The notes under the pieces: generated by a model
What the model saw: only the letters and a program-made list of their open reading frames with translations
Told to the model about the DNA's origin: nothing
The model's database searches: none
Made by a program: the position numbers and the translations under genes
In this document: in pieces, positions 8,264-27,486 of the stretch
Layout of the letters: each line of letters begins with the position of its first letter
Position numbering within the stretch: position 1 is the stretch's first letter
Source: a virus
Virus record (IMG/VR): IMGVR_UViG_3300021074_000110
Span: 1 to 27,486 of that record
DNA length: 27,486 nucleotides
Strand: one strand, 5' to 3'

Positions 8264-10615
8264 CTAAGCTGAGATTATATCCACGCCTTCAATTAATGAT
8301 TCCTCTATTTCAAATAAGTCTGCAATTTCACTATCTAAGACTTCCCTGACTGTAAGTTCTTGAGTCAATCCATCACCAAGATTAAAGACTGTGGAAATTT
8401 TTATAATTCTCATTACATAGTATACATCGTTTTTACGATTAAAGACAGCTACAATGTCTCCTAATTGGAGTTGTGGAACTGCCCGATTGTTCAAAACCAT
8501 CTTATGAAACGGGTCTTTATATTTAGCAATTAATGAAATTGCCAAAGCATCTGCATAGTGGTCATCTTGGAGGTATTTGTTATCTACCTCAAGTAATGTT
8601 TCCCCGTATAAATCAATACTGTCTTGGTCTAATTGTTCTATGATAGTCGCTCCCTGAATAATATAAGGCTCTCCTCTTACTTGTAGATTTGTAATATAAA
8701 CCGTTCCAGCATCATCATTGTAAATATTCATCAACATTGATTCGGCCCATTTAACAAAAGTTCCCGTTATTTTGTTTGTCTTGTCCACACCAGACCCGTC
8801 AGAGATTGAATTTGCTTTAAAGTCAGTATTAGCCACAGGCGTTGTAATCACTCCACAAGGGTCCTCAAAGTTAGCCCAGACAGGTTCTGTTGACTTCCCT
8901 GCAATTTCAATACTTCCACTTGACTCCCAGAGTATCTGAGATGATTTTTTTACCCTAGGATTGACAATTACCCTGACCTTGTTAACGATTTGGTCTTCGT
9001 CATTTGGAAAGTCTATATCTGTTAAATTATTATAGTTAAAGTCCCAGACCTTTTCTTTTTGGTAGGTATTGTAGTGTTGGCGATTCTCAAAAACAAAATA
9101 GCCTTCATCGTTTTGATAAAATCTTCCACCCTCAGCTTCAGCCGCAGTCATAATTTCATAACCAGCAGTATTCCCACCCCACCAGCAAATTGGAATAGTC
9201 TGAAGCCCTGGTTCTATCAAGCTGACGCCACCTTTGGTCCAGTTACTAGAATTATAAAGAGCGTTCCCGTCACTGTCTTTTATCTCAGCTAAAATTAATT
9301 TAATATATTCGTCTGTTGTTTTGCCTAAATAAACACTTCCATCTGGGAGTTTGTAATTATTGAGCATTTTAACATCATCATAGAATTTAATCCTTGCCTG
9401 CTTACTGGACATATTCGCTTTAGGTAATCCACTCCTTCCAGTAAAGACTTGAATCAACTCATTCCCGTTAGTAGTGGTGAATCCTAAGCTTATCTTGGTT
9501 GGTCTCTTTGGTAGAATATCTCCCTCTATTGGAACTCCAGGACTCGGTGATGGACTCGCAGAAGGACTGACTGAAAGACTTGGAGACATAGAAGCACTAC
9601 TAGAATTTGAACTAGATGGAGAGCTTGAAGGGCTTTTTGATGGACTCTTTGATGGACTTTGACTAGAGCTTTTGGAAGAAGAACTGCTTGGCGATTTTGA
9701 GGATGAAACACTCGGACTAGCAGAGGGTGATTTTGATGGACTCTTAGAGGGACTTTTAGAAGGACTAGATGATGGCGATTTTGATGGACTACTTGAGGCT
9801 GAGATTGACGCACTCGGACTCCTCGAAACAGAACTTGATGAACTTCCTAAAGACGGACTCGCAGAAGCACTAGAACTTGGAGAATAGGAAGCACTTGGAG
9901 AATAACTAGCCGAAACAGAACTTGAAATACTAGATGAAGCCGAAACGCTTGGTGAATAAGACGCAGAGGCACTTTTGCTCGGTGAGCTTGACGGACTTCT
10001 TGAAACTGAGGATGAGTTTGAACTAGATGGGCTTGTACTGGGAGAGTATGAACTTGAGGGCGATGAAGAAGGACTGATTGACGGAGAATAAGACGCAGAT
10101 TGAGGAGGACTTTCTCCATAAACATAAAAAATCATATCCCATAAACTAACTTGCCATTCATCACCATCACCTTCGTAGTCATAAGCATTACCATCGTGAG
10201 AATAAGCAGAAGTATCAACCCCAATCATAATATAAGCACCAGAAATATCAGAATATTGAATTTCTATGCAATACTTAGTATCCTTGGTCATCTGATATTG
10301 TTGGTCTCCACTAAAAGTAAATTCAATTAGGGCGGGGGTTGTACTAGACAAAGTTGAAGCTGCGATTGTGCCAGATGTTGCCAACACAGAACCTGTTGGT
10401 AAACTACTTGTACCGAATATCCCTGAATGGGCATACAACTTTGCGGTCATATTATTAACAGGAGAAGCAGATTTCTTCAAATAAAATTTACACGAAGTTA
10501 GTTTAGCACCACTTCCCGTGAATGATTGACCGTGACGGTCTACAAAAAAAGTGTTCCCCTGGTTAACAAAGTCGTTACAATTACTTTCGCTATAACTATC
10601 TATAAGGGTTGCCAT
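8264..10615 (-). CDS. Tail hub protein fused to a beta domain and a Ser-Pro repeat block
   Basis: A 783-aa protein from ATG 10615, which overlaps the mini-ORF stop (TAATG) and has GGGG upstream. Residues about 1-165 form a beta-sandwich-like domain (DSYSESNCNDFVNQGN, KFYLKK, TKDTKYCIEIQYSD). Residues about 172-360 are Ser-Pro repeats (SPS, SAS, SKS). Residues about 362-783 are the body of a phage tail hub/minor tail protein (GDILPKRPTKISLGF, QVFTGRSGLPKANM, KMLNNYKLPDGS). That body normally follows an N-terminal part ending NRFTP, which here is the separate gene at 10702-10929. The beta domain and repeats therefore look like an insertion in an older gene. The product probably sits at the tail tip and displays the repeat block. 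Confidence 0.82.
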   Translation of the reverse strand: MATLIDSYSESNCNDFVNQGNTFFVDRHGQSFTGSGAKLTSCKFYLKKSASPVNNMTAKLYAHSGIFGTSSLPTGSVLATSGTIAASTLSSTTPALIEFTFSGDQQYQMTKDTKYCIEIQYSDISGAYIMIGVDTSAYSHDGNAYDYEGDGDEWQVSLWDMIFYVYGESPPQSASYSPSISPSSSPSSSYSPSTSPSSSNSSSVSRSPSSSPSKSASASYSPSVSASSSISSSVSASYSPSASYSPSSSASASPSLGSSSSSVSRSPSASISASSSPSKSPSSSPSKSPSKSPSKSPSASPSVSSSKSPSSSSSKSSSQSPSKSPSKSPSSSPSSSNSSSASMSPSLSVSPSASPSPSPGVPIEGDILPKRPTKISLGFTTTNGNELIQVFTGRSGLPKANMSSKQARIKFYDDVKMLNNYKLPDGSVYLGKTTDEYIKLILAEIKDSDGNALYNSSNWTKGGVSLIEPGLQTIPICWWGGNTAGYEIMTAAEAEGGRFYQNDEGYFVFENRQHYNTYQKEKVWDFNYNNLTDIDFPNDEDQIVNKVRVIVNPRVKKSSQILWESSGSIEIAGKSTEPVWANFEDPCGVITTPVANTDFKANSISDGSGVDKTNKITGTFVKWAESMLMNIYNDDAGTVYITNLQVRGEPYIIQGATIIEQLDQDSIDLYGETLLEVDNKYLQDDHYADALAISLIAKYKDPFHKMVLNNRAVPQLQLGDIVAVFNRKNDVYYVMRIIKISTVFNLGDGLTQELTVREVLDSEIADLFEIEESLIEGVDIISA

Positions 10616-10695
10616 TATATTACCCCAATCCACAAATCAGAAACTGAACCTTCTATCCAGTTCTGACAAGTTGCTTTATTTCTAAATTTGTCCAT
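10615..10695 (-). CDS. 26-codon mini-ORF copied from a glycosyltransferase 3' end
   Basis: Reads MDKFRNKATCQNWIEGSV..., with AGGA 4 nt before the ATG and a stop overlapping the next start. The segment DKFRNKATCQNW is identical to the end of the GT at 22631-24235, and the DNA is identical over 33 bases. It lies exactly between the two halves of the split hub gene. It may be translated only to couple the halves, or may be a recombination scar. Confidence 0.45.
   Translation of the reverse strand: MDKFRNKATCQNWIEGSVSDLWIGVI
10657..10693. repeat. Copy 1 of a dispersed 33-37 bp direct repeat
   Basis: Positions 10657-10689 equal 22697-22729 exactly (33 bp); the match extends to 37 bp with one mismatch. 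Both copies have the same orientation and are 12,040 bp apart. This copy sits at the insertion boundary of the Ser-Pro cassette in the hub gene; the other is in the 3' end of a GT gene. Confidence 0.95.
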
Positions 10696-10701
10696 TATAT
10701 C

Positions 10702-10929
10702 CTAACTCGGTGTAAACCGATTAGTTTGATTCGCCAAAACCACATCAGCCAAGCAGGAATTAACCCCACCTAAGGGTTCTTCTATTGACCTTTCAACTCC
10801 TAGCGAAAGCAAATACCAGGACTCATCTATGTAGTTTCCCGTTAAGTTCCAGTCTATCTCTACTTTATAAAGAGGCTTTCGTCTTTGATTGCCCGATTCA
10901 GTTGTAAATTCATCTGTAACTGTTCTCAT
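10702..10929 (-). CDS. N-terminal fragment of the tail hub protein
   Basis: A 75-aa product: MRTVTDEFTTESGNQRRKP, KVEIDWNLTGNYIDESWYL, and LANQTNRFTPS at its end. Tail hub/minor tail proteins of this type normally continue after NRFTP into a segment like ILPxRPxxISxGF. That continuation is found at about 9530 in the Ser-Pro gene. The frame stops at TAG (10704-10702). The gene is therefore half of a split protein. It may still fold as a separate subunit that pairs with the other half, since the tail genes otherwise look intact. Confidence 0.78.
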   Translation of the reverse strand: MRTVTDEFTTESGNQRRKPLYKVEIDWNLTGNYIDESWYLLSLGVERSIEEPLGGVNSCLADVVLANQTNRFTPS

Positions 10930-11308: not shown

Positions 11309-14300
11309 TATACTCCTCCTAGAATTGGGTCTTTGCCCTTAGCGATAAGGACATCATCCATCGCATTAAATATTTCCGTAGCCATCTTGCGTTTTTCTAT
11401 TTCTGTGCCTCCGTACATTCCTACATTTACACTTAGATTTGTATTCGTAATACTCTGGTCAAAGTTTGGAGAGTTTGGATTGATTGAAACTCCTCCAGCC
11501 TGAAGAACCCCAGTCATCATTGACATTTCTCTTTCAAGCAAAGGCATAGCATTTTTTATCCCTTTAGCATAATTAGTTATAAGATTTTTGCCCCAATTCA
11601 TAGCGGGTAATAATGGATTATAAGATTGATGAGGCCTCTGAAGGATAAGACACATTTGATTTATCGGGTCATCTATATATTTTAACCCAGCGTTTAATCC
11701 TGCCCCAAAGTTAATATCAAAGTTATTCCCCCAAGTCCACGCACTCCCAGAATGTTTGTTCGCAGCAGATACACTGTCTCCTACCGCATTAGCATTGGCA
11801 CTTACCGTACCTTTTCCAGCCCCAATCCCCCCACCGAACTGATTTGAAAACCAACTTCCTTCTCCAAACGCCAAAGGATTATTCTTTTTAAGTCCACTTA
11901 AGGCAGTATCAGAAATAGAACAAGTGGTGGCTTTTACAACTTCTTTTGCTGGCAACATACCACTATTAAAATTAGTAACCATTTCTTTCCCACCGATTAT
12001 CGCATTAACATTTTCGCTTACAAGTCCTCCCTTTGCGTCTATCGCACAGGTTGTAGCGGTGTTGATTGTGTTTTGTTTTTCTGAAGCCATACCATAATTA
12101 AACAAAGCAACTATGTCTTTTCCTAATTTTGCCCAATCCCCGTTCATAACATCTTGAATAATTGCTCCGAGTAATTTCCAGAACTCAGCGGCATCTCTAC
12201 CAAATTTTTGCCAACCAGATAATATTTGTCCATTTTTAAGGTCTATATCAGCCTTAACATTATCACCCATTCCTTGAACTTCTTTAACCACCCCAGCGGA
12301 CATTTCATTTGCCGCCTTAATGGTGTCGTCTCTTTGTTTTGTGGCGTTTGCGATTGCTGTTGCTGCTTGTTCTGCGGTCATTGTTTTTGAAACATCTCTT
12401 GAATAAATTATATTTTTAATTGTAGTATCATATTGTTCATTTGCGGCTTTTATAGTTGAGTCTCTTTGGACTATGCTATTCTTTATTGCCTCCGAAGCCA
12501 TCTCTAATGTTATTCTACCGCTAGACGCTTTTAGTTTTTCTAGTATTAATGTTTGATTTATATTCCCGTCTGTTTGAATCCTTACAACCTCTACCGCCAT
12601 ATCATTAATTTGTTTTACAATGCTTGTTCTCATCTCTTGAGTAACTGTAATCCCTTTATCTTTTAATACAGTAATTCTGTCCTCTATTGCTTTAGCGACT
12701 TCATCTTGTTTTTTCTTTTGTTCATCAAGTTTATCGTTAGCCTTTTTAGCCATAGAGTCGTACTGTTCTGCTGTTATTACCTTTGTAACATCTCTTAAAT
12801 ATTTTAATTTGGCTATTGCTTCATCATTGTTTTTTTGAAATACCGCGATAGCATTTCCTTTCATTTTCTCTATTTCTGCCACCATTCCGTCTGCGATATC
12901 TTTTGTAATAAATTTACAATTATCTTGCAACTCATAAAGTGTCTTTTGTACTCCTTCAGACAATTTCAAAGTAGAGGCAACCGATTTTCCTGCCATATCT
13001 TCAAAAGACTTTGTAGCCTTTTCGGAGGTTCCATTCATCCCATCAGAATATCCTTTGAATAAATCTCCCCATCTTTTCATAGAGTCTGCCAGTGGTCCGA
13101 ACAATATCTTGAATACCTCAATAAGAACTTGTACGGCAACGGTTATTAACTTTATTGCCCATTCTACTTCCTTCATAGTAAGAACAACCATTAACCACGC
13201 CCCAACCCCCAATGCTTCAGCTACAAATTTCAATAAAGAACCGAGGACACTCAAAGCTCCAGATATTCCACCTATTGAAACAAAGGTTGCGTCTAATTCT
13301 TTATATGCTTGATTAAATACAGCTACTAATCCTCCCCAAGCATCAATAATTCCTTGTGCTGCGTCATTTACCAAATTTCTGATTCCTCCCAAATTATCTT
13401 TCCAAGCAAAATACATTCCAACAATAGTTGCTATTACTGCTCCTATTGCTAACGCAATCCAACCTAATCCAGCCAACACTCCCCCACTCCCTATTTCTGC
13501 TAAGGCAATACCGAAGTCCCCTAGTAACGCCACCGCCCCACCAGAAGAACCTAATATTTCTATTAATGCCAAAAATTCCAATCTAAGATTTTTTAATTTT
13601 CCTCCTAATCCACCCAAAAAACTACCAACAGATTTGATATTCGTTAATAATAAATAAATTCCCATTTTATCTAAAACAACATTTAAGGCAATAAGTCCTA
13701 AAGTTACTTTAGCGACATCCGCGATAAATGTTTTCATAGCAGGAGGTAATTCCATAAATTTTCTTACAAGTTCTGCTAACCATTGTGCCACATTAATAAA
13801 GGCTAACACCCACCCTTGCAAAACCTTGGCAATCGCCTCACGGTTCGTATCTAAATATTGTAATAATCCCATTGCGGCATCTTTTATTTGGTCATAAGCA
13901 GAATTAGGTTTAATCTCTCCTGTTAAATCCATTCCCATCATAGCTAAGATAACCCGGGTAATGTTGTCTTTTATATTGGAAAGAATACCTGGAAGTGTTT
14001 TGGATTGAGCATCCATTAGTCCGCCAAACTTGCTACCTGCCTCTGTCATTGAGTCTAACGCCTTTTCTACCTCGGCATATCCTATTTTTCCAGCACTAAC
14101 CATTTCACTGGCGGCTTGTTTAGTTACTCCTAGTGTTTTTGCTAAGTAATCCAACATAGGAATACCTCTAAGGGTAAATTGTAGAATATCTCTAGTATAT
14201 GCTCTCCCCTGAGTTTTTAATGTTCCAAATAAATATGCCATATCTCCAATAGGAATATTCAAAGCCGCTGCCACATCTCCCATTTTTCTCATCATAGGGA

Positions 14301-14724
14301 TTACTTCATCTGCTGTGTAGCCAAAGGCTAATAATTGTTTTGTTCCTGCCACTACCTGCGGTAGTTCAAATGGAGTTTTAGCCGCAAAGTCTGATAATTT
14401 CTTTAATAAATCTCCCGCCAATTCTCCTGACCCAAGCATTGTTTCAAAGGCGATTCGGTTCATTTCATAAGTTCCAGTAGTGCTTAAAGCAAACTTACTG
14501 AAGACAAGTCCTGCTGCCCCTAACGCCAAACCTGCTATTGCCGCAAATTGTATGGTTCTATTTGCTAAACTGTCTAAATGTCCAGTAACCTTTGCCGCCA
14601 TAGATGAAGAAGAACCCTGAAGTGTAGACATTGATGTCTGCATTTGAGTCATTCCCTTAGTAAAGTTTCCAGTTCTAAGGTCTATTTCTGCGTAAGCACT
14701 TCCGAGGAAAACAGTATCAGCCAT
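11308..14724 (-). CDS. Tail tape measure protein
   Basis: A 1138-aa protein with AGGAGAG before the ATG. Residues about 75-260 match the tape-measure N-terminal domain (NRIAFETMLGSGELAGDLL, FAAKTPFELPQVVAGTKQLL, QFTLRGIPMLDYLAKTLGV). The middle has several hydrophobic segments (for example around residues 405-440, LGWIALAIGAVIATIVG), used in membrane passage of DNA. Long coiled-coil stretches with repeats follow (AIANATKQRDDTIKAANE is near a copy of IKNSIVQRDSTIKAANE). The C-terminal third is Gly/Asn-rich. It sets tail length, implying about 170 nm, and is assembled with the two chaperones upstream. Confidence 0.95.
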   Translation of the reverse strand: MADTVFLGSAYAEIDLRTGNFTKGMTQMQTSMSTLQGSSSSMAAKVTGHLDSLANRTIQFAAIAGLALGAAGLVFSKFALSTTGTYEMNRIAFETMLGSGELAGDLLKKLSDFAAKTPFELPQVVAGTKQLLAFGYTADEVIPMMRKMGDVAAALNIPIGDMAYLFGTLKTQGRAYTRDILQFTLRGIPMLDYLAKTLGVTKQAASEMVSAGKIGYAEVEKALDSMTEAGSKFGGLMDAQSKTLPGILSNIKDNITRVILAMMGMDLTGEIKPNSAYDQIKDAAMGLLQYLDTNREAIAKVLQGWVLAFINVAQWLAELVRKFMELPPAMKTFIADVAKVTLGLIALNVVLDKMGIYLLLTNIKSVGSFLGGLGGKLKNLRLEFLALIEILGSSGGAVALLGDFGIALAEIGSGGVLAGLGWIALAIGAVIATIVGMYFAWKDNLGGIRNLVNDAAQGIIDAWGGLVAVFNQAYKELDATFVSIGGISGALSVLGSLLKFVAEALGVGAWLMVVLTMKEVEWAIKLITVAVQVLIEVFKILFGPLADSMKRWGDLFKGYSDGMNGTSEKATKSFEDMAGKSVASTLKLSEGVQKTLYELQDNCKFITKDIADGMVAEIEKMKGNAIAVFQKNNDEAIAKLKYLRDVTKVITAEQYDSMAKKANDKLDEQKKKQDEVAKAIEDRITVLKDKGITVTQEMRTSIVKQINDMAVEVVRIQTDGNINQTLILEKLKASSGRITLEMASEAIKNSIVQRDSTIKAANEQYDTTIKNIIYSRDVSKTMTAEQAATAIANATKQRDDTIKAANEMSAGVVKEVQGMGDNVKADIDLKNGQILSGWQKFGRDAAEFWKLLGAIIQDVMNGDWAKLGKDIVALFNYGMASEKQNTINTATTCAIDAKGGLVSENVNAIIGGKEMVTNFNSGMLPAKEVVKATTCSISDTALSGLKKNNPLAFGEGSWFSNQFGGGIGAGKGTVSANANAVGDSVSAANKHSGSAWTWGNNFDINFGAGLNAGLKYIDDPINQMCLILQRPHQSYNPLLPAMNWGKNLITNYAKGIKNAMPLLEREMSMMTGVLQAGGVSINPNSPNFDQSITNTNLSVNVGMYGGTEIEKRKMATEIFNAMDDVLIAKGKDPILGGV

Positions 14725-18039: not shown

Positions 18040-18068
18040 ATTATAGCACTTTTAGGACTTTCTTTTAA
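18040..18068 (-). promoter_or_regulatory. Extended -10 promoter for the neck and tail genes
   Basis: On the minus strand TTAAAA (18068-18063), a 17-bp spacer and TATAAT (18045-18040), with TGC directly before TATAAT (extended -10). It overlaps the last codons of the Ser-repeat gene and would start transcripts about 10-12 nt before the Shine-Dalgarno of the 69-aa gene. It could keep morphogenesis genes expressed whatever happens in the long repeat gene. Confidence 0.6.
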
Positions 18069-21000
18069 GTCGTTTAAAGAAACTCCCTAATAGGGTTATT
18101 TTAATTGTTCCAGCACTAGGACTGGCACTTATACTTGAAGATGGGCTTACACTAGGACTTAAAGAAGCACTAGATGAAGCTGAGGCACTTTCACTCCTGC
18201 TCGGACTCTGACTGGTGCTGATTGACGGAGAAACTGAAGGAGAAACGCTAGGAGAGACCGAAGGACTAACAGAAGCTGAAGATGATGGAGATACAGAAAC
18301 CGAGCTAGAGGCACTCCTACTTGGACTTACAGAAGGACTGACCGAAGCTGAAGAACTAGCACTCCTACTAGGACTGACAGAAGGCGATACAGATGGAGAA
18401 ACAGAAGGAGATGCAGAAGGTGAGCTAGAAATTGACGCAGAGATACTAGATGACTCACTTATGCTGGCAGAAGGAGATAAACTAGGCGAAACACTAGGAC
18501 TGACACTAGGACTGACACTAGGAGACACGCTAGGGCTTACGGAGACACTGCTAGAGGGGCTTTCTGACGGAGAGACACTAGAACTACTACTTGGGCTAAT
18601 TGAAGGGCTTACAGACGCACTGAGAGAGCTTGAGGAACTTTCGCTCAAACTAGGACTAACCGAAGGAGAAACTGACGCACTGCTAGACTCTGAGCTAGAC
18701 TCAGAAGCCGAAGCACTAGAGCTTTCTGACACTGAAGGACTGATAGACGGGCTGATACTTGGTGAAACTGAGGGTGAAACTGATTCACTTTGGCTTTCAC
18801 TGGAAGATTCTGATATTGAGGCTGAAGCCGAAGAACTTTCACTTAAACTTTCTGATAATGAAGCACTCAAAGACTCCGAGCTACTCTCTGACACGCTAGG
18901 AGAGACAGAAGGGCTAACACTTTCAGAATAACTGGCTGATGGACTGACGCTTTCTGAATAACTAGCACTCGCACTAGATGATTCCGACAAAGATTCACTC
19001 AAGCTGGGACTAATAGATGGTGACGAGGACTCAGAAGAACTTTCTGAGATAGACGCAGAGCCACTAGAACTTTCGCTTGATGATTCTGAACTGCTTTCTG
19101 ACACCGAAGGACTAATACTCGGAGAAACTGAAGGGCTGATTGACGGACTGACGCTTTCACTTATAGAGGCAGAGTCACTAGAGCTTTCGCTACTACTTGG
19201 GCTAGAACTAGGACTTATCGATGGAGAAATAGAAGCACTTGAAGACTCAGAACTAGATTCTGAGCTAGATTCTGAAGCACTCTCACTACTCGACTCTGAA
19301 CTAGATGGACTAACTGATGGAGAGGTAGAGGAAGATGAAGACTCACTACTAGATTCACTGATTGAGGCTGAAGGAGAAACTGAAGCAGATGATGACTCGG
19401 AAGAACTCTCAGAACTAGATTCTGATGCCGACTCACTACTTGATTCACTTATAGAAGCTGAATCACTTTGGCTTTCTGAACTTGAAGGACTGGAACTCTC
19501 TGAATAACTCGCAGAAGGACTTTGTGATTCTGAAACTGACGCACTTGAACTTTCACTGCTAGATTCTGAAGCAGACTCAGAATAACTAGCTGAAGCACTT
19601 GATGATTCACTACTTGACTCACTGCTAGAGGCTGAAGCACTATCGGATTGACTAGGACTAACCGAGGGACTAACTGATGGAGATAAGGAAGCAGAGGAGG
19701 ACTCTGAACTTGATTCTGAAGTAGACTCAGAGACACTCGGAGAATATGAAGCCGATTCAGAGGATGATTCACTCGATGAAGGGCTGATACTTGGAGAGTA
19801 TGAAGCACTCTCAGACAATGAAGGTGAAACCGAAGGAGAGACTGACTCCGAACTAGACTCTGAGCTTGATTCACTAATAGAAGCTGAAGCTGATTGACTC
19901 TCTGAAACTGACGGGCTAACAGAAGGTGAAACTGATTCTGAAGCACTCTCTGACGAGCTTTCACTACTACTCTCAGATGAACTTTCAGAAACACTTGGTG
20001 AAACTGAGGGACTGATTGAGGCTGACGAGGATTCACTGCTACTTTCAGAGATTGAAGCCGACTCTGAACTTGATTCGCTTAATGAGGGACTGGAACTTTC
20101 ACTAATAGAGGCTGACTCAGAAACGCTTTCGCTAGATGACGGACTCGCTGATTCAGACGAAGATACCGAAGAACTTTCTGATATTGAGGCACTTTCACTG
20201 CTAGATTCGCTTCGGCTTTCACTGGAAGATTCAGAGACACTAGGTGAAACAGATGGTGAATAACTTGAACTAGGACTTTGACTATCTGAAGAACTAGGAG
20301 AGGCTGAAGCACTGCTAGACTCACTAGCTGATTCAGAACTTGACTCACTAGGACTAACTGACGAACTTTCACTTATGCTCGCAGATGGAGAAACAGAAAT
20401 GCTACTTGAAGGGCTGATACTTGGGCTAACGCTTGGTGATAAGGAAGCAGACGAGCTTTCAGATATTGACGCACTTGCTGATTGAGAAACGCTAGAACTT
20501 GGCGATTTAGATGGGCTAACGCTAGGACTCCCTGAAGGGCTTGAACTAGCCGAAACAGAAGCACTAGGGCTTAATGATGGGCTGACTGACGGGCTTTTAC
20601 TAGCAGATGAGCTGGCTGAACTTGAGACTGAGCTAGAAGCCGATATAGAAGCTGAACCACTAGAGCTAGGTGAACTTGAGGGTGATTTAGAGTTACTGCT
20701 ACTTGGAGAACTACTAGGACTGATAGAAGGAGAATAACTAGCAGAGGCACTACTTGAGACAGAACTTGAAGGGCTTTTTGATGGTGAAACTGAGGGACTA
20801 GCTGAAGGAGATATGGAAGGAGAATAACTGGCACTGGCACTCATAGAAGGAGAACTACTAGGACTCTTAGAGGGTGAGACGCTCGGAGATACGGAAGGAC
20901 TAATACTAGGCGAGTAACTACTTGAGGGAGAACTAGACGGACTAGAACTAATAGAAGCAGAAACGCTACTAGACGGAGAACTGGAAGGACTTATACTTGG

Positions 21001-22119
21001 AGAATATGAAGCAGACGGAGAAGATGATACAGAGTTAGACGGACTGCGTGAAGCCGAACTTGAAGGAGAACTACTAGGGCTGATACTTGGCGAATAGCTA
21101 GATGACGGACTACTACTTATTGAAGCACTTGGACTTTGCGAAGGACTCAAGCTCGGAGATATTGACGAACTCACGCTAGGGCTGTACGAAGATGATGGGG
21201 ATGATGAGATACTAGCTGAGGCCGAAGAACTCGCACTCAAACTAGGGCTAGAACTAGGACTCGCACTGGCTGAAATCGAGGCTGAAGGCGATTGACTAGG
21301 AGAAGCTGATGGAGACAACGAGACACTACTTGAAGCACTTATAGAAGCTGACGCTGAGCTAGAGGCTGAAGAACTGGCACTAGATGAAGGGGATTTACTC
21401 GGACTTTGAGACGGACTAATAGAAGGAGAATAACTGGCACTGGCACTCGATGAGACAGAGCTAGACGGGCTAACACTCGAACTGGAACTTGGAGATACGG
21501 AAGGACTAATACTAGGCGAGTAACTACTTGAGGGAGAACTAGACGGACTCTGAGATGGAGAGACTGAAGGACTAAATGAAGGACTATATGAGGCACTTGC
21601 AGAGCTTGATGGAGACTTGCTCGGGCTGACGCTAGGGCTGACTGAGGGCGAAGCACTAGGACTCTTTGACGGAGAATAAGACGCTGACGCTGAAGATGAC
21701 GGAGATATAGATGGAGAATAGGAAGCTGAGGCTGAAGAACTAGGACTCCTTGAAGCCGAAGAAGAAGCACTAATAGAGGCACTAGGGCTTGAACTTGGGC
21801 TTTTGGAGGCAGAGCGAGATGGAGATGATGAAGGACTTACAGAGGGGCTGTATGAAGCTGAGGGACTTCTTGAGGCAGAACTTGAAGCTGAACTTGAGAC
21901 TGAAGATGATGGAGACTTTGAAGGAGAGACTGAGGGCGAGTAAGAGGCACTGGGAGAACTTGAAGGAGAGTTAGACGGAGATTTAGAGGGACTAGAAGAA
22001 GGACTTACAGAGGGAGAGACTGAGGGTGATTCACTTTCATACCCATCAAGAACAATCTTACTATTTTCTTCTTGTAGTAAGTATCCTGCATCTTCTTTTT
22101 GTAAAAAACTATAAGCCAT
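18052..22119 (-). CDS. Giant serine-dipeptide-repeat protein, 1355 aa
   Basis: Residues 1-29 form a unique head (MAYSFLQKEDAGYLL, IVLDGYES). About 1300 residues follow in which nearly every second residue is Ser (S-P, S-S, S-A, S-V, S-I, S-K, S-E). The tail is AGTIKITLLGSFFKRLKRKS. Three zones are visible. About 30-550 alternates with P, Y and some K/R and has no Glu. About 555-1220 is rich in SES units and acidic. About 1220-1330 is SPSVSPS with a few Arg. Such a chain is expected to be extended and disordered and is an obvious substrate for O-glycosylation; the GT module lies directly upstream. It probably forms a long fibre or coat on the particle. It has exact internal DNA repeats. No signal peptide is seen. 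Confidence 0.85.
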   Translation of the reverse strand: MAYSFLQKEDAGYLLQEENSKIVLDGYESESPSVSPSVSPSSSPSKSPSNSPSSSPSASYSPSVSPSKSPSSSVSSSASSSASRSPSASYSPSVSPSSSPSRSASKSPSSSPSASISASSSASRSPSSSASASYSPSISPSSSASASYSPSKSPSASPSVSPSVSPSKSPSSSASASYSPSFSPSVSPSQSPSSSPSSSYSPSISPSVSPSSSSSVSPSSSVSSSASASYSPSISPSQSPSKSPSSSASSSASSSASASISASSSVSLSPSASPSQSPSASISASASPSSSPSLSASSSASASISSSPSSSYSPSVSSSISPSLSPSQSPSASISSSPSSSYSPSISPSSSPSSSASRSPSNSVSSSPSASYSPSISPSSSPSSSVSASISSSPSSSPSSSYSPSISPSVSPSVSPSKSPSSSPSMSASASYSPSISPSASPSVSPSKSPSSSVSSSASASYSPSISPSSSPSSSNSKSPSSSPSSSGSASISASSSVSSSASSSASKSPSVSPSLSPSASVSASSSPSGSPSVSPSKSPSSSVSQSASASISESSSASLSPSVSPSISPSSSISVSPSASISESSSVSPSESSSESASESSSASASPSSSDSQSPSSSYSPSVSPSVSESSSESRSESSSESASISESSSVSSSESASPSSSESVSESASISESSSPSLSESSSESASISESSSESSSASISPSVSPSVSESSSESSSESSSESASESVSPSVSPSVSESQSASASISESSSESSSESVSPSVSPSLSESASYSPSISPSSSESSSESASYSPSVSESTSESSSESSSASLSPSVSPSVSPSQSDSASASSSESSSESSSASASYSESASESSSESSSASVSESQSPSASYSESSSPSSSESQSDSASISESSSESASESSSESSSESSSASVSPSASISESSSESSSSSTSPSVSPSSSESSSESASESSSESSSESSSASISPSISPSSSPSSSESSSDSASISESVSPSISPSVSPSISPSVSESSSESSSESSSGSASISESSSESSSPSISPSLSESLSESSSASASYSESVSPSASYSESVSPSVSPSVSESSSESLSASLSESLSESSSASASISESSSESQSESVSPSVSPSISPSISPSVSESSSASASESSSESSSASVSPSVSPSLSESSSSSLSASVSPSISPSSSSSVSPSESPSSSVSVSPSVSPSVSPSVSPSVSPSLSPSASISESSSISASISSSPSASPSVSPSVSPSVSPSRSASSSASVSPSVSPSRSASSSVSVSPSSSASVSPSVSPSVSPSVSPSISTSQSPSRSESASASSSASLSPSVSPSSSISASPSAGTIKITLLGSFFKRLKRKS
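20885..20943. repeat. 59-bp direct repeat, copy 1, in the Ser-repeat gene
   Basis: Identical over 59 bases to 21491-21549. The copies are 606 bp apart, a multiple of six, so the Ser-X register is kept. A second shorter identical block lies 606 bp apart just beside it (about 20817-20842 and 21423-21448), with a diverged 44-bp stretch between the blocks. Confidence 0.95.
21491..21549. repeat. 59-bp direct repeat, copy 2, in the Ser-repeat gene
   Basis: Partner of the repeat at 20885-20943. Recombination between them would remove 606 bp in frame. Confidence 0.95.
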
Positions 22120-22128
22120 TTAATCCCT

Positions 22129-22629
22129 CTATGCTGTTCTTGACCACATATAAACAACTACATAGGGTTGTAGATTATTATGAGCATCTGCGGCTGCGGC
22201 TGCGGTAGCATCGGCAGTAACAGCCCCCGTTCCACTTCCCCTAAGAATACCAACACCAAAGGCACCAGCTCCAACATTATAGTTGTCTCCAATAGTATGA
22301 TTATGAGCACGGAGTCCAGATTCAAGAGCACTCAGTGTATGTGTTTCTGCACCCCCAGTTGCTGCGGCAGTGTCAAATGTTCCCGAGGCTGCCTTACTTA
22401 CAAGCACCCGCCCAGCCGCATAAGCCGACCAAGTGCCAACTCCTAATAGTGTCCCAGGATTGGTTGAGAGGGTAGATATATAAATACTCCCTATCGGATA
22501 TAACAACCCAAACAAATCCGCAAAGGTCGTCTTTTTAGTTGTAGTATCTGTCGCATCAACGACAGGGATAGTATCTCCTGTCGCTAAGGTTGTTAGTCCT
22601 GTTAATGCACTTATTTTTTGGTCAGCCAA
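22129..22629 (-). CDS. Short tail/collar-type structural protein
   Basis: A 166-aa product from TTG 22629, with AAGAAGG 6 nt upstream and no better start. The N-terminal part MADQKISALTGLTTLATGD and IPVVDATDTTTKKTTFADL is a common phage fibre motif. Then comes the collar frame YPIGSIYISTLSTNPGTLLG, GTWSAYAAGRVLV, a His-containing loop (RAHNHTIGDN), and QPYVVVYMWSRTA. The same frame, without the loop, ends the spike at 5984-7633. It lies one base after the GT fusion gene and 9 bases before the Ser-repeat gene, so it may be the tip or base of that fibre. Confidence 0.85.
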   Translation of the reverse strand: MADQKISALTGLTTLATGDTIPVVDATDTTTKKTTFADLFGLLYPIGSIYISTLSTNPGTLLGVGTWSAYAAGRVLVSKAASGTFDTAAATGGAETHTLSALESGLRAHNHTIGDNYNVGAGAFGVGILRGSGTGAVTADATAAAAADAHNNLQPYVVVYMWSRTA

Positions 22630-22630
22630 T

Positions 22631-24235
22631 TTATACCTTCTTTCCTATTATTGTTTCTAAATTTATATCTGTTACTTTATCTATCGTACTTTCTTGCCAG
22701 TTCTGACAAGTTGCTTTATTTCTAAATTTATCCGTACTCCACCTGTTTTCTGTTAAATTATTTGTATGGCGTATATCAAGATTCGCCTCGGCTGATTCCC
22801 ACCTATCACTTCGTTTATCTCTAGTCCCTGGTTCGTAACTACCTTTATAATCTTTGCCTTGAGCCACTATCTTTCGGTATTCTTCTATTAAAAGTTCCCG
22901 ATAGGCACACATCTGAGAGGTTGAGTCGTGGTCAAACTTAACCGCAAAGCCATCATCTCTGACCCGCCAGTTATTGTTATTGTAGTAGAACTTATCCTTA
23001 GAGGGTGGTATGAAGTCAAAGTGACTCTTATGATAAATGACATCATGCTCACAGAAGAAAATAATATCTTCGGTCATCGCTTCTAATCCTGCTAGGATTT
23101 GCTTAAACATTGTCTCCCGACCTCTTTTAAGGTGTAGGTGAATATTCCTGCCAAAGTCCATCTTTTTTAGAGAGACAGAAGTAATTGGTAAGCCTGATTC
23201 CTTAATATATATACGACAAGTTTTGGCTAGTTTCATATTTATCTGGTTATCGGTGTAGTATAAAATCCCAGAACTTAGTCCTTTTCCAACCGCAGAATCT
23301 TTTTCTTTTATCTTTTTCAAATCTTCATCACTCCAACCAGGAATAGGCCAGAACTTTTCTACCAACCAACTAAGAGGTCTTGTTTGTTTGTCCCATTTAT
23401 TATTAAAAAACAAATCTCTAGCATATTTTTTAGCGTCTTGTACTTTACTGCCAGGGTTAGGATAAGGAAACCCGAAATCTCCACCAGCGGTTCTAAAACA
23501 ATGAGCATACCAGGTGGAATGATTTATTAAAACCCTGCCACCAGACAACCAAAACTTGCAGGCAACGGTTAATCCTTGACTTCCCCAACTACCAAAACTT
23601 TCATCATCTATATCTAATTCAAAATATTTGTCCCTAGTCATCATAAAAAACGAACCCTGCAAACTCATTGACTCAGTTAGGTTGTTTTCTTTTACTGCCC
23701 TCTTTTTATACTCCTGAAAATATTGGAAGTGAGGCTCTGAATCAAAACAATATGACCAACTGTGAGGATTGGTTTTAGCTATCCAGACTACATCCTTAAC
23801 TGTTTCTTTGCCACACTCTTTACAAATACCAGATTGGCCTTGGTATCTAGTATGTCCATCAGGGCAAACCCAATTAAACACCCATAGATTCCTCATCGTG
23901 GGACAAATTACCACATTATCTCCAGCCGTTTCAAATGCTTCTAACATTTTAACATCAAACCCCTCATCAAAAGCACAATGAGCATCCGTTTTTGCGATAA
24001 ATTTTGCTTTAGAAATTCTAGCACATTGTTTTGTAATGGCTCTTTGTCCAATGGACTCAGGATAATATAAAATAACCACATCGGGATGCGTCTGTATCGG
24101 TGCTTCTGGCCAATCACCATCTAACCCAACAATAATCTGAGTTTTGCCTCGTTTATTTTTCAATATATCCTCAATGGTTTTATTTAACCATTCTTCTCTC
24201 CTGGCAGGAATTATTATAGACAAATCATAGTTCAT
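22631..24235 (-). CDS. Two-domain glycosyltransferase (GT2/GT27-like plus second GT-A domain)
   Basis: A 534-aa protein, ATG overlapping the previous stop (ATGA). Domain 1 (about 1-290) begins LSIIIPARREEWLNKTI, has the metal motif KTDAHC, a zinc-ribbon-like insert (CPDGH, CKECG), and FGSWGSQGLTVACKFWLSGG with HSTWYAHCFR, resembling the acceptor-side region of polypeptide GalNAc-transferases. Domain 2 (about 300-520) has FCEHDVIYH and FYYNNNNWRVR, a second GT-A-like fold often seen in phage and bacterial loci. The last residues (DKFRNKATCQNW) are copied at 10695. It probably adds sugars to a phage structure or to host glycans; acceptor inferred only. Confidence 0.85.
   Translation of the reverse strand: MNYDLSIIIPARREEWLNKTIEDILKNKRGKTQIIVGLDGDWPEAPIQTHPDVVILYYPESIGQRAITKQCARISKAKFIAKTDAHCAFDEGFDVKMLEAFETAGDNVVICPTMRNLWVFNWVCPDGHTRYQGQSGICKECGKETVKDVVWIAKTNPHSWSYCFDSEPHFQYFQEYKKRAVKENNLTESMSLQGSFFMMTRDKYFELDIDDESFGSWGSQGLTVACKFWLSGGRVLINHSTWYAHCFRTAGGDFGFPYPNPGSKVQDAKKYARDLFFNNKWDKQTRPLSWLVEKFWPIPGWSDEDLKKIKEKDSAVGKGLSSGILYYTDNQINMKLAKTCRIYIKESGLPITSVSLKKMDFGRNIHLHLKRGRETMFKQILAGLEAMTEDIIFFCEHDVIYHKSHFDFIPPSKDKFYYNNNNWRVRDDGFAVKFDHDSTSQMCAYRELLIEEYRKIVAQGKDYKGSYEPGTRDKRSDRWESAEANLDIRHTNNLTENRWSTDKFRNKATCQNWQESTIDKVTDINLETIIGKKV
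22697..22733. repeat. Copy 2 of the dispersed 33-37 bp direct repeat
   Basis: Lies inside the 3' end of the two-domain GT gene and encodes DKFRNKATCQNW. Partner of 10657-10693, same orientation. Confidence 0.95.
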
Positions 24236-24900
24236 TTCTTGTGACTCCTATATTCCCAGTAAGGATAATCTTTAATCTTTTTGTCCATTACTTTAACCTC
24301 AATATCTTCTCTGTCTAAAACCAGACTCATTGTCAGCTGGTCGTCTAGGTGAAATCTTGAGTCGTAATACCACCACTCTTTAAGGGCGGTTCTCATTGCT
24401 TCATTATTTCTATAAATAAATATAGCTGCGTGATAGGCAGGAAGGTCTCCTTTGTCGCTCCCACAGATTTCATCTATCTCATAATAAAGTTCTTCTAACA
24501 GTTCTCCCTCGTATCGTTGTTGAAGATATTTACTCTTAGGAAGGTTATCTCTCAGAAAATTGAACTCATCTTCAACGGTATCGTGAAACGGATGGGGAAA
24601 AACTAAAATATCGTTATCGCCTAATTCCTTAATCAGAAAGTCAACCGCTCCCTCTTTTAAGATGTAATTAGCATCTACCCAGATATAAAAATCATAACTA
24701 TCGTGATTCTCATCATAAGGGATTAAATCCCAGCCAAAACACTTAGGGATTTTACTCTGGGCGTGAGGCGTGAGAGCCTTTCTTAAAGGAAAGTTCGTCT
24801 CATTGTATCTCATTATATCGGCTGGCTGGTCTGCCCACTCGTTGGGTTCATCAAAACCATTAAACGAAGCCGAAGTGATTAAAGTTTTGTGTACATCCAC
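24232..24900 (-). CDS. DUF616/TOD1-like glycosyltransferase
   Basis: A 222-aa protein from GTG 24900 with GGAGGA about 9 nt upstream; it overlaps the methyltransferase by 22 nt. DFYIWVDANYIL is a GT-A-type metal/nucleotide segment. It continues with FPHPFHDTVEDEFNFL and FHLDDQLTMSLVL, which together match the DUF616 (TOD1/MUCI70-like) family. It is part of the sugar module. Donor and acceptor are unknown. Confidence 0.72.
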   Translation of the reverse strand: MDVHKTLITSASFNGFDEPNEWADQPADIMRYNETNFPLRKALTPHAQSKIPKCFGWDLIPYDENHDSYDFYIWVDANYILKEGAVDFLIKELGDNDILVFPHPFHDTVEDEFNFLRDNLPKSKYLQQRYEGELLEELYYEIDEICGSDKGDLPAYHAAIFIYRNNEAMRTALKEWWYYDSRFHLDDQLTMSLVLDREDIEVKVMDKKIKDYPYWEYRSHKK

Positions 24901-25412
24901 GATGGAAAGTCCTCCGTTGTTATTTGTAAGTCTTTAATCCTATAGGCGTGTACCCAAGCATCTACGACATCTTTAACCTGACATTCACAACTTGACCTGT
25001 AAGGAACATAATCGTGACCTGAAACTATCCCACCTTTTCGGACTTTACGAGACCATTCTGCTATGTCATTTGTGACATTCTTAAAATCATGGTTACAATC
25101 AATGTAGACAAAATCCAGAGATTCGTCTTTAAACTCCTTAACTGCGTCCATTGACCACCCCCTGATAAGCTCTACCCTTGGAGAGAACTGACTTAGCAAT
25201 TCTTTGGTCTCTTCATAGTATCTATCTAGTTTGTCTTGTCTGGTGTGGTCTCTATACCCCTTGTAGACGCACCAGGCGTCTATACAAGAGAGTTTTAGCT
25301 TAGGATTAGCATCTAGTAGGGTTTTAGCAAAGTAGCCCCTCTCAGTGCCTATCTCAGCCCCTACGGTGAATCCCTTGTCTGCAAAGTATTTGCCTAAATC
25401 TTCTCTGACCAT
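24879..25412 (-). CDS. Class I SAM-dependent methyltransferase
   Basis: A 177-aa product from ATG 25412 (GGAG upstream; a longer start is rejected). Motif I is VGAEIGTERGYFAKTLL, followed by LSCIDAW, then FVYIDCNHDFKNVTNDI and KGGIVSGHDY, as in the Methyltransf_24 type acting on sugars or small groups. Set between glycosyltransferases, it most likely methylates a sugar of the added glycan, a common cap in surface glycans. The acceptor is not proven. Confidence 0.85.
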   Translation of the reverse strand: MVREDLGKYFADKGFTVGAEIGTERGYFAKTLLDANPKLKLSCIDAWCVYKGYRDHTRQDKLDRYYEETKELLSQFSPRVELIRGWSMDAVKEFKDESLDFVYIDCNHDFKNVTNDIAEWSRKVRKGGIVSGHDYVPYRSSCECQVKDVVDAWVHAYRIKDLQITTEDFPSWMYTKL

Positions 25413-26251
25413 ATCAACTCCTTCCAATTCTTTGGGTAATTCGGGACTGGCATAAATTTCTCAATTACGCTTATAAAAAAATCTTTATTATCGTACAACC
25501 AAGTTTGTCTTGAATAATCATAACTTGCTTGGACTTCGCTTTTATTCTGGTGATACATCCTCCCGTATGTTTTTCCTTTATGAAGGTGAGCATAATGGGT
25601 GTTTTTATTCGTCTTAACTTCTCCTCCCATCAACCGAGTCTTTAAACCTAATTCTTCGGCTTCTTGACCCCAGCCAGTATATCCCTCAATCTGCATAAAC
25701 CCGCATTTATTGAACCAATCCTTAGTCATAAACCAGCAACTTCCTTGAAATTCCAGAGTATCGTCTATCATTATATCTGCTCTCTCTAAAGTTCGTGAGT
25801 CCCACTTATATCCGTGGAGACTTTCGCCCCTTGTTAAGGGTCTGAACATAAAGTATTCGTAATCAATCGGTGGTCTACCAAATTGGTCTTGTATTTCCCA
25901 TTTCTCAGCATCCAGCCTGTGCCTTCTCGGTATCTGAACCCAGTTAGGTTTGTGGTCTTTGGCGAGTTGTTCGTCAAAGCCTTTAGCAACCAGACAATGA
26001 GCATCTAGACTCATTACATAATCCCCCTTAGCTTGTCTAACCATCTCATTGACTCCGTGTCGTTTCTTCATCTCTGGCGTAGCTGGTAAGCGGATATATT
26101 TAACCCGTGAGTCCTCTATTATCTCGTCTGGTTCGTAACCATCCAAGACTGGGAATATTTCTATCTCTCCTGTGGCATTCTCTAAGACATCTCTAATGGT
26201 TTGGTTGAGGAATTTCTCCCCCTTACTTGGAATTGCTATTGATAAGGACAT
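25394..26251 (-). CDS. GT2/GT27-like glycosyltransferase
   Basis: A 285-aa protein; ATG 26251 is preferred (GGAGG 6 nt away) over the adjacent ATG 26254. It begins MSLSIAIPSKGEKFLNQTI and has the metal motif MSLDAHC, like DSHC of polypeptide GalNAc-transferases. FQGSCWFMTKDWF is followed by GWGQEAEELGLKTRLMGG and THYAHLHKG, again like the GalNAc-transferase order (WGxE...GG...H). Transfer to Ser/Thr would fit the Ser-repeat neighbour. The similarity is by motif order only. Confidence 0.82.
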   Translation of the reverse strand: MSLSIAIPSKGEKFLNQTIRDVLENATGEIEIFPVLDGYEPDEIIEDSRVKYIRLPATPEMKKRHGVNEMVRQAKGDYVMSLDAHCLVAKGFDEQLAKDHKPNWVQIPRRHRLDAEKWEIQDQFGRPPIDYEYFMFRPLTRGESLHGYKWDSRTLERADIMIDDTLEFQGSCWFMTKDWFNKCGFMQIEGYTGWGQEAEELGLKTRLMGGEVKTNKNTHYAHLHKGKTYGRMYHQNKSEVQASYDYSRQTWLYDNKDFFISVIEKFMPVPNYPKNWKELIWSEKI

Positions 26252-26981
26252 CATTCACCTCCAAGAGTTTATTTGTTAATTCTGGGGTGTAGCCACAAGA
26301 TTCAGCCCAACTAGACCAACCGTAAACATCCTTTGGAATACATTTAGAGTTGAATCCTCTGTCTTTATAGATAGCGGTCCACCAGAGGTTCATTCTAGGG
26401 TCGTCTCCGTAAACAGCATCTCTTATAGCATAGTAATCTATCTTAGCGGCTTCACAGGCATCATAGAGTTCCTGACATTGAGCTACTTTGAAAGCGATTG
26501 CTCTATTCTCTGATAATTTAACGACTTCTGCCTCATACGAGGTCATTTGCCTGATTTTAAGGTTCGCATTGAATACGGTCATATATAAACTGATTACTTT
26601 TCGTCTCTTTTCAGGACTGCCACCCAAGATGATGAATGGTCTTGAATGTTGGTCGGTCATCGGATGATTAACCGTCTCTCCTAAGTATTCTGGCTGAAAG
26701 ACAGCGTCATACTTCTCACAAGTCCCTGGCATTACCGTAGACCTGACCACGATTAAAGGTTCTTCAGCTTCTTTTAGGACATTTTCTACTATCGAGGTGT
26801 CCAGCTTCCCGTCTTTTAGTGGTGTTGGTACACACACAAACGCTACATCACCTACTTCTTTTGAAAAAAACCCTTGTTCAGGGTCGTGTATTAAGGCGTC
26901 TGGGAATAAAGTATGCATCGCTTTTCCAACCCAGCCGTACCCGTAAATGACAACCCTTATTTCTTTATTTGAAGTTGCCAT
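26223..26981 (-). CDS. UDP-glucose/GDP-mannose dehydrogenase family protein, short form
   Basis: A 252-aa protein with GGAGG before the ATG. The NAD-binding motif is YGYGWVGKAM, then CVPTPL, VRSTVMPGT, PEYLGE, AEVVKLSENRAIAFKV and the active-site segment FNSKCIPKD, whose Cys is the catalytic thiol in this family. Family members are about 400-450 aa; this one ends soon after the Cys and lacks the C-terminal nucleotide-binding domain. It may oxidise a nucleotide sugar to a uronic acid for the GT cluster, or have a changed role. Confidence 0.85.
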   Translation of the reverse strand: MATSNKEIRVVIYGYGWVGKAMHTLFPDALIHDPEQGFFSKEVGDVAFVCVPTPLKDGKLDTSIVENVLKEAEEPLIVVRSTVMPGTCEKYDAVFQPEYLGETVNHPMTDQHSRPFIILGGSPEKRRKVISLYMTVFNANLKIRQMTSYEAEVVKLSENRAIAFKVAQCQELYDACEAAKIDYYAIRDAVYGDDPRMNLWWTAIYKDRGFNSKCIPKDVYGWSSWAESCGYTPELTNKLLEVNDVLINSNSK

Positions 26982-27486
26982 TATATCCTCCTTAATTCTT
27001 TAATTATTTTATTCGCAGTATTGTTGGTTGTCCAGTTAGACCGAACCCACTTTGAAGCTTTTAAACCTTTGGCTTTTGCTTCTTCTTTGTGGTCAAAAAC
27101 ATATTTCATCAATGTTTTAAATTCTTCATAGTCTGGTTCGTACCAGTTGCCAACATCTCCCCAATTATGAGGGTATCTAAATGCTGGAGTTAATACATTC
27201 TTTCTAATTGGATAGTTATACTTATCATTCGCAAACTCGTGCATCCCTGTATGGTCTGCAAATATCACAGGAAGTCCAGTTGCCATCGCTTCTACTGGAG
27301 GTAGCCCAAAGCCTTCTCCCCTGGTTGGAAAGACGAAACAATCTGCGTCAGCGTATAACTTTTTAATCCTCCATCTAGGATAAGGCTTATCTATTATCTC
27401 TATATTATTAGTTGGAAACTCTAAATGTCCCAAGGTTCCGTCTTGTGTTTTAAGAACAAGTTTGACATCTTTCCTATCTCCAAATA
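26981..27486 (-). CDS. GT4 glycosyltransferase (partial, N-terminus beyond the window)
   Basis: The frame is open from the right edge (FGDRKDVKLVLKTQDG) to the stop at 26981, giving about 167 residues of the C-terminal lobe. The GT4 signature is clear: LYADADCFVFPTRGEGFGLP then PVEAMATGLPVIFAD, with the EGFGLPPVE donor-binding motif. It is the most upstream visible member of the sugar module and uses a nucleotide-sugar donor. The real start lies outside; an internal TTG at 27433 is not the start. Confidence 0.88.
   Translation of the reverse strand, partial: FGDRKDVKLVLKTQDGTLGHLEFPTNNIEIIDKPYPRWRIKKLYADADCFVFPTRGEGFGLPPVEAMATGLPVIFADHTGMHEFANDKYNYPIRKNVLTPAFRYPHNWGDVGNWYEPDYEEFKTLMKYVFDHKEEAKAKGLKASKWVRSNWTTNNTANKIIKELRRI

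Follow-up and report, generated by a model that had tools for sequence, protein, structure and literature searches.

A candidate O-glycosylation cassette linked to strict serine-repeat proteins in a phage and in Patescibacteria

We describe here a locus in the 27,486-bp fragment of the IMG/VR virus record IMGVR_UViG_3300021074_000110 (the window, which is the whole of the sequence analyzed), in which genes for glycosyltransferases (GTs), a nucleotide-sugar dehydrogenase, and a methyltransferase lead into a gene encoding a 1355-amino-acid (aa) protein with serine at every second residue (a Ser-X repeat). This locus probably constitutes a self-contained O-glycosylation cassette for Ser-X stalks of the virion, homologous to a surface system of Patescibacteria. 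The occurrence of the GT and Ser-X gene pair in dozens of phages, as well as on Patescibacteria chromosomes, suggests a shared and undescribed kind of surface glycoprotein.

We postulate that, in the cytoplasm of the infected cell, two GT-A enzymes related to the polypeptide GalNAc-transferases (ppGalNAc-Ts) would attach the first sugars to the serines of the 1355-aa protein, perhaps at high density, and that the Ser-X stretch of a 789-aa tail protein is probably glycosylated by the same enzymes. A TOD1-like GT, a GT4-type enzyme, and the candidate GT in the second domain of the larger ppGalNAc-T-like enzyme would extend the chain, with the dehydrogenase and methyltransferase supplying or capping a modified sugar. 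Decoration would precede particle assembly, and its product would be a mucin-like glycosylated stalk, carried both close to the head-tail region and on the tip of the tail. In Patescibacteria, the same enzymes and Ser-X proteins lie beside TatC and TatA of the twin-arginine translocation (Tat) system; there, cytoplasmic synthesis of the glycoprotein would be followed by its export in association with a membrane protein bearing a Tat signal. The virion may wear the sugar coat of its host cell, favoring adsorption, aggregation, or protection; sequence does not choose among mimicry, adhesion, and shielding as functions.

The Ser-X repeat

A preliminary description of this DNA had reported a giant protein with Ser at every second residue, and the regularity proved complete: Ser occupies 654 of 654 alternate positions across 1308 residues of the 1355-aa open reading frame (ORF). 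All six Ser codons occur (TCN 451 and AGY 326 in the whole protein), and exact repeats in the DNA are few, with none of 60 nt or longer. Because all six codons are in use, and because no single synonymous step interconverts TCN and AGY, the alternation is maintained by selection at the protein level. Slippage of simple-repeat DNA was considered as the origin of the array and ruled out by the mixed codons and the scarcity of exact repeats; judged by the scarcity of exact repeats, the array is not the product of recent slippage.

The residues at the alternate (X) positions are chiefly P (154), S (119), A (99), E (79, or 12% of X), V (76), and I (44). Across all loci examined, we collected 197 distinct Ser-X ORFs, with runs of up to 1936 residues; both Ser codon families are used in these, and X is P in 35%, A in 17%, and V in 14%, with Ile and Leu also represented and charged residues few. 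With much Pro, many small residues, and little charge, the Ser-X proteins resemble in composition the mucin repeats that carry mucin-type O-glycosylation.

Glycosyltransferases related to ppGalNAc-Ts

Two of the window's enzymes, of 286 and 534 aa, belong to GT2 families (PF00535, E-values of 1.7e-11 and 2.7e-10). By profile and predicted fold, both are nearest to the ppGalNAc-Ts and well clear of other GT-A enzymes. In profile searches, ppGalNAc-Ts were the best solved relatives of both families: the 286-aa profile matched GALNT1 at 8e-10, with the whole catalytic domain covered, and the 534-aa profile did so at 4.9e-8. AlphaFold models (pLDDT 95.4 for the 286-aa GT and 89.6 for the 534-aa GT) were compared with the PDB by VIA-align, and for each model the top 29 entries were all ppGalNAc-Ts, with Z scores of 22.5-26.2 for the smaller enzyme and 24.0-27.8 for the larger (ppGalNAcT2 being the highest in both cases, at 26.2 and 27.8). 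Roughly 255-275 residues were aligned, mostly with a root-mean-square deviation of 2.4-3.4 A. The first entry from outside the family scored 19.2 (chondroitin polymerase) for the 286-aa GT and 20.3 for the 534-aa GT. The kinship with GT27, which had been proposed from motif order, was thus borne out by both profile and predicted structure.

The motifs themselves are conserved: D84, H86, and H223 of the 286-aa GT are invariant in 48/48 relatives, and in all 36 relatives of the 534-aa GT the DxH, WG, GG, H245, R248, and EHD residues are kept. Like the GT27 enzymes that act on mucins, these proteins combine a GT-A fold with DxH, Gal/GalNAc-T, and His motifs, and the candidate substrate is rich in Pro, Ser, Ala, and Val. 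The WGGEN motif of GalNAc-Ts is replaced by WGSQG and WGQE in the window's GT2s, and the R of the 'HVFR' motif is retained in the 534-aa enzyme. Unlike GT27 enzymes, neither protein carries a ricin-type lectin domain or an N-terminal membrane anchor, as judged by Pfam and the models; the 286-aa protein is a single catalytic domain, and the larger enzyme has an additional insert bearing Cys pairs of the CxxC type, as well as an unclassified second domain with an invariant EHD motif. Among relatives, this second domain is either fused to the GT or free-standing, being a separate gene at L009 9983-10594 and at L010 8728-9363 and 9992-10723 (loci are numbered with the prefix L). It had no Pfam match when tested on L010 9992-10720, and is a possible new glycosyltransferase family.

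Linkage of GT and Ser-X genes

Used by itself as a query, the 534-aa GT retrieved seven contigs, and in all seven a Ser-X gene lay directly downstream. A profile search of IMG/VR with the same enzyme yielded 454 relatives, 80 of which were kept, with duplicates removed before counting. Of the 45 viral loci whose downstream sequence reached 3.5 kb or more, 42 carried a same-strand Ser-X ORF within 3.5 kb downstream of the GT (median gap, 40 bp), and 44 carried one somewhere in the locus; none of 121 Ser-X ORFs was on the opposite strand. A second sampling, seeded with the smaller GT and overlapping the first in part, found a Ser-X ORF in 32 of 35 loci with at least 6 kb downstream and the larger GT in all 35. 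Starting instead from the DNA pattern of the repeat, we found the GT in 12 of 33 true Ser-X fragments and in 1 of 87 others (p 3.6e-7), and five of fifteen Ser-X contigs scored as GT-less carry the GT elsewhere on the contig. The co-occurrence of the two modules in related phages thus holds in both samplings, and frequent separation was not seen.

These loci are largely those of phages. A terminase is encoded on 27/41 viral contigs, and portal and major head proteins are found in both L089 and L007. We considered whether the viral set consists of misclassified bacterial contigs and rejected this for most of them, given the terminases and the lack of any TatC match among the viral loci examined. 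In L089 the order is terminase, portal, the GT module with its Ser-X gene, protease, major head protein, neck, and tail, such that the GT genes lie inside the phage structural gene set there, as they do in the window. Both GTs were without a match by tblastn in annotated phages, and the small GT was without one in plasmids; the major head protein of L089, used as a query, matched one contig.

The linkage also bears on two other readings. It is unlikely, in our view, that the role of the GTs is to remodel the surface of the host cell, for superinfection exclusion or receptor masking, and that they adjoin Ser-X genes only through a shared variable late region. Phage GTs do often modify host surface glycans. 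Genes of this sort in Patescibacteria phages are read as cell-surface modification in a published study (PMC12911398); however, the linkage is near-universal, tight, and same-strand across diverse phages and bacterial chromosomes, and the nearest structures are of enzymes with polypeptide acceptors. Less likely still is that the Ser-X repeat serves as a flexible spacer and stays unmodified, with the GTs glycosylating other virion proteins (the collar, the capsid, or globular domains), much as has been proposed for mycobacteriophages. Although capsid glycosylation by phage-encoded enzymes has been suggested (PMC11256854), and Ser-X proteins bear many globular modules, a spacer would call for neither Ser at strictly alternate positions along 1308 residues nor an accompanying GT in almost all loci.

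Several observations weigh against our preferred reading, that of a cassette for glycosylating Ser-X stalks. The repeat is upstream rather than downstream of the GT in two viral loci, and one locus lacks it. Ten Ser-X contigs are without this GT; several are short, but they include contigs of 42 kb (L171) and 190 kb (L196), and the long Ser-X runs on these two indicate that the repeat may have other partners. Likeness to the ppGalNAc-T fold in a model does not prove a polypeptide acceptor or a GalNAc donor, and the lectin domain is missing. Finally, searches of IMG/VR with the tape-measure, Tal, and amidase proteins returned one weak relative or none; because the window's tail genes thus found no relatives, the host is read only from the kinship of the GTs, and a place in the virion only from where the genes lie.

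Patescibacteria chromosomes and the Tat system

The preliminary description contained neither the Patescibacteria connection nor the Tat-linked chromosomal version of the locus. When the GT profile was run against 84,980 species genomes, 36 loci matched, and every named genome match was to Patescibacteria (Candidate Phyla Radiation), from Saccharibacteria to the Microgenomates and Parcubacteria groups. L089, one of four other contigs (from metagenome-assembled genomes), is a phage. As the GT was present in 5 of 380 sampled Patescibacteria genomes, it is a patchy trait within the phylum. On GT kinship, the phage of the window is probably a virus of these ultra-small bacteria.

Other matches to the GT profile lie in loci that are plainly chromosomal. 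TatC is single-copy in each genome where it was found, and in 16 of the 22 genomes with TatC it lies on the GT contig within 15 kb. On the six contigs longer than 140 kb, the probability of such proximity arising by chance, given a shared contig, is about 4e-7. TatA is also present at L120 and L121.

A conserved membrane protein encoded near the chromosomal locus combines a Tat-like [KR]RxFL signal with a small C-terminal domain (GxWYIMxE...RYxKG...LxYDYYNxIF), which is free-standing in phages and fused behind the signal in Patescibacteria chromosomes. All nine chromosomal copies of the domain carry the signal, and it is absent from the phage copies (seven loci on six contigs, two of the loci sharing a contig). 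The chromosomal Ser-X proteins have no obvious signal peptide, as judged by eye. Since a small-domain protein with a Tat-like signal is encoded nearby, a hitchhiker route of the Ser-X proteins through Tat is possible.

Exchange between phages and bacteria

In a quick tree of 108 GTs, viral and chromosomal sequences are intermixed, with at least seven changes between virus and cell, five of them forced by well-supported branches; the cell rows include a few phage contigs (L089), such that this count is an upper view. Phage and host versions have probably been exchanged, in either direction. The chances are about even, in our estimation, that a mucin-like glycoprotein system has been repeatedly traded between Patescibacteria and their phages, Tat-exported by the former and presented as stalks on the particles of the latter, for mimicry or adhesion.

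We also entertain, more tentatively, that the Tat-linked loci of chromosomes derive from phage modules that were domesticated, making the system phage-born rather than captured from a host. The viral GTs are the more diverse and surround the chromosomal sequences in a midpoint-rooted view, the host Ser-X proteins lack an evident signal peptide, and one of them matches a tail fibre family; against this, the tree is quick and unrooted, and its sampling was seeded with a viral query. A phage-born origin concerns where the system came from, not its mechanism, and is compatible with a Ser-X glycosylation cassette.

Relation to known systems

Two kinds of system are already known, the glycosylation of phage virions and the Ser-rich bacterial glycoproteins that have dedicated GTs. 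The parallel first drawn with the serine-rich-repeat (SRR) adhesins of bacteria stands, in that a long Ser-rich repeat protein adjoins GT genes. As in the streptococcal SRR glycoproteins (Fap1, GspB, Srr), a huge Ser-rich stalk with ligand-type domains is encoded beside dedicated GTs, glycosylation is expected to be cytoplasmic, and the cellular version adjoins a dedicated export machine. The present system differs in its strict Ser-X alternation with Pro, in its ppGalNAc-T-like GTs, in the Tat genes of its chromosomal loci where SRR loci have SecA2/SecY2, and in the position of the window's copy within a virion gene set. No accessory Sec or other export genes are among the annotated genes of the window; the chromosomal loci have TatC and TatA.

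In mycobacteriophages, phage GTs have likewise been proposed to modify virion proteins, although the GTs and hosts are different; to our knowledge, no dedicated Ser-X stalk gene has been described there. Closest in host are the 'auxiliary' cell-surface genes of phages of the same phylum, which include nucleotide-sugar genes and concanavalin-like lectins (PMC12911398); the passages found in that report do not present a Ser-X substrate, GalNAc-T-like GTs, their linkage, or Tat. In the open-access papers searched, we found no description of Ser-X repeats, of GT27-like phage enzymes, or of Patescibacteria surface glycoproteins, nor of the combination of ppGalNAc-T-like enzymes and strict Ser-X repeats with Patescibacteria phages, chromosomes, and Tat. 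Little is known of the surface that Patescibacteria show to other cells, or of the way in which their phages recognize them, and a recognizable cassette present in both partners would offer a testable handle on that surface. If our reading is correct, mucin-type O-glycosylation would gain a counterpart in prokaryotes and viruses, with natural substrates of exceptional regularity, and there would be an instance of a Ser-rich glycoprotein served by Tat in place of accessory Sec.

Gene order of the window

Every gene of the window is on the minus strand (Table 1). The GT module is truncated at its upstream end by the fragment boundary and sits upstream of the neck genes; outside it, the window encodes a siphophage neck, tail, tape-measure, fibre, and amidase (lysis) set. 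Pfam matches and gene junctions upheld the content first given for the module (at least four GTs, a nucleotide-sugar dehydrogenase, and a methyltransferase, co-directional and overlapping): neighboring genes overlap by 1-34 nt, and the module runs into the collar and Ser-repeat genes as described, with gaps of 1 nt between the 534-aa GT gene and the collar gene and of 9 nt between the collar and Ser-repeat genes. The C-terminal UDP-binding domain of the dehydrogenase (UDPG_MGDP_dh type) was unmatched in the Pfam scan. The methyltransferase is recurrent in the module, its family (A3) being present in 100 loci. The 222-aa protein is itself without a match in a Pfam scan, yet it aligns over 208 residues (3e-40) with a TOD1_MUCI70 protein of L107 that matches PF04765 at 6.8e-8. 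In three other loci, ORFs resembling HNH-type homing endonucleases, by sequence reading, lie between GT-module genes (L005 740-1195, L008 8055-8570, and L089 6534-7133).

Table 1. Features of the window and of related loci (positions are those of the window unless a locus is named)
Feature	Position	Strand	Support
GT4-type glycosyltransferase, C-terminal part, cut by contig end	26981..27484	-	PF00534 4.5e-13, phrog_2170 2.7e-24
Short nucleotide-sugar dehydrogenase, UDP-glucose dehydrogenase-like	26223..26981	-	PF00984 3.8e-13, PF03721 2.1e-8, phrog_9148 1.2e-23
GT2 / ppGalNAc-T-like, 286 aa; DAHC, WGQE, GG, YAH motifs	25394..26254	-	PF00535, profile, model
Class I methyltransferase, Methyltransf_24	24879..25427	-	PF13578 1.2e-18
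TOD1/MUCI70-like glycosyltransferase, 222 aa	24232..24900	-	34% identity to L107 protein
GT2 / ppGalNAc-T-like (residues 1-305) plus second domain with invariant EHD, 534 aa	22631..24235	-	PF00535
EHD second domain of the 534-aa GT	22631-23270	-
Tail collar / fibre-end protein, Gp10_C	22129..22629	-	PF21939 1.8e-24
1355-aa Ser-X repeat protein, proposed glycosylation substrate	18052..22119	-	alternate Ser
75-aa ORF ending in TAG, putative severed Tal N-terminus	10702..10929	-	sequence reading only
33-bp exact copy of 534-aa GT gene 3' end	10649..10681 (approximate to ~1 base)	-	blastn 33/33
789-aa Tal-like tail protein with 178-aa module and second Ser-X stretch	8264..10633	-	phrog_10359, phrog_35697
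Small domain, phage, free-standing	L007 7524-7877, L018 8131-8475, L320 9711-10007
Small domain, chromosomal, Tat-like signal	L107 3848-4480, L118 1833-2423, L121 2565-3263

A second Ser-X protein and module shuffling

The window encodes a second Ser-X protein, the 789-aa Tal-like protein, which the preliminary description did not mention. Its Ser-X stretch is preceded by a 178-aa module that recurs in other loci, and all other matches to this module are Ser-X proteins, two of which are encoded on Patescibacteria chromosomes (L107 and L118). Directly upstream of the gene is the 33-bp copy of the GT gene's 3' end. The simplest reading is that a cassette consisting of a GT 3' end and a Ser-X gene recombined into a Tal gene, of which the 75-aa ORF may be the severed start; no uninterrupted relative of the Tal pieces was found by tblastn in annotated phages or by search of IMG/VR.

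The Ser-X ORFs contain 246 globular segments, one cluster of which (23 segments) is typified by a Laminin_G_3/concanavalin-like lectin. On a Woesebacteria chromosome (L119), the Ser-X ORFs are broken by two identical stop contexts (SPQLE followed by a stop) at 14127-14150 and 14630-14650.

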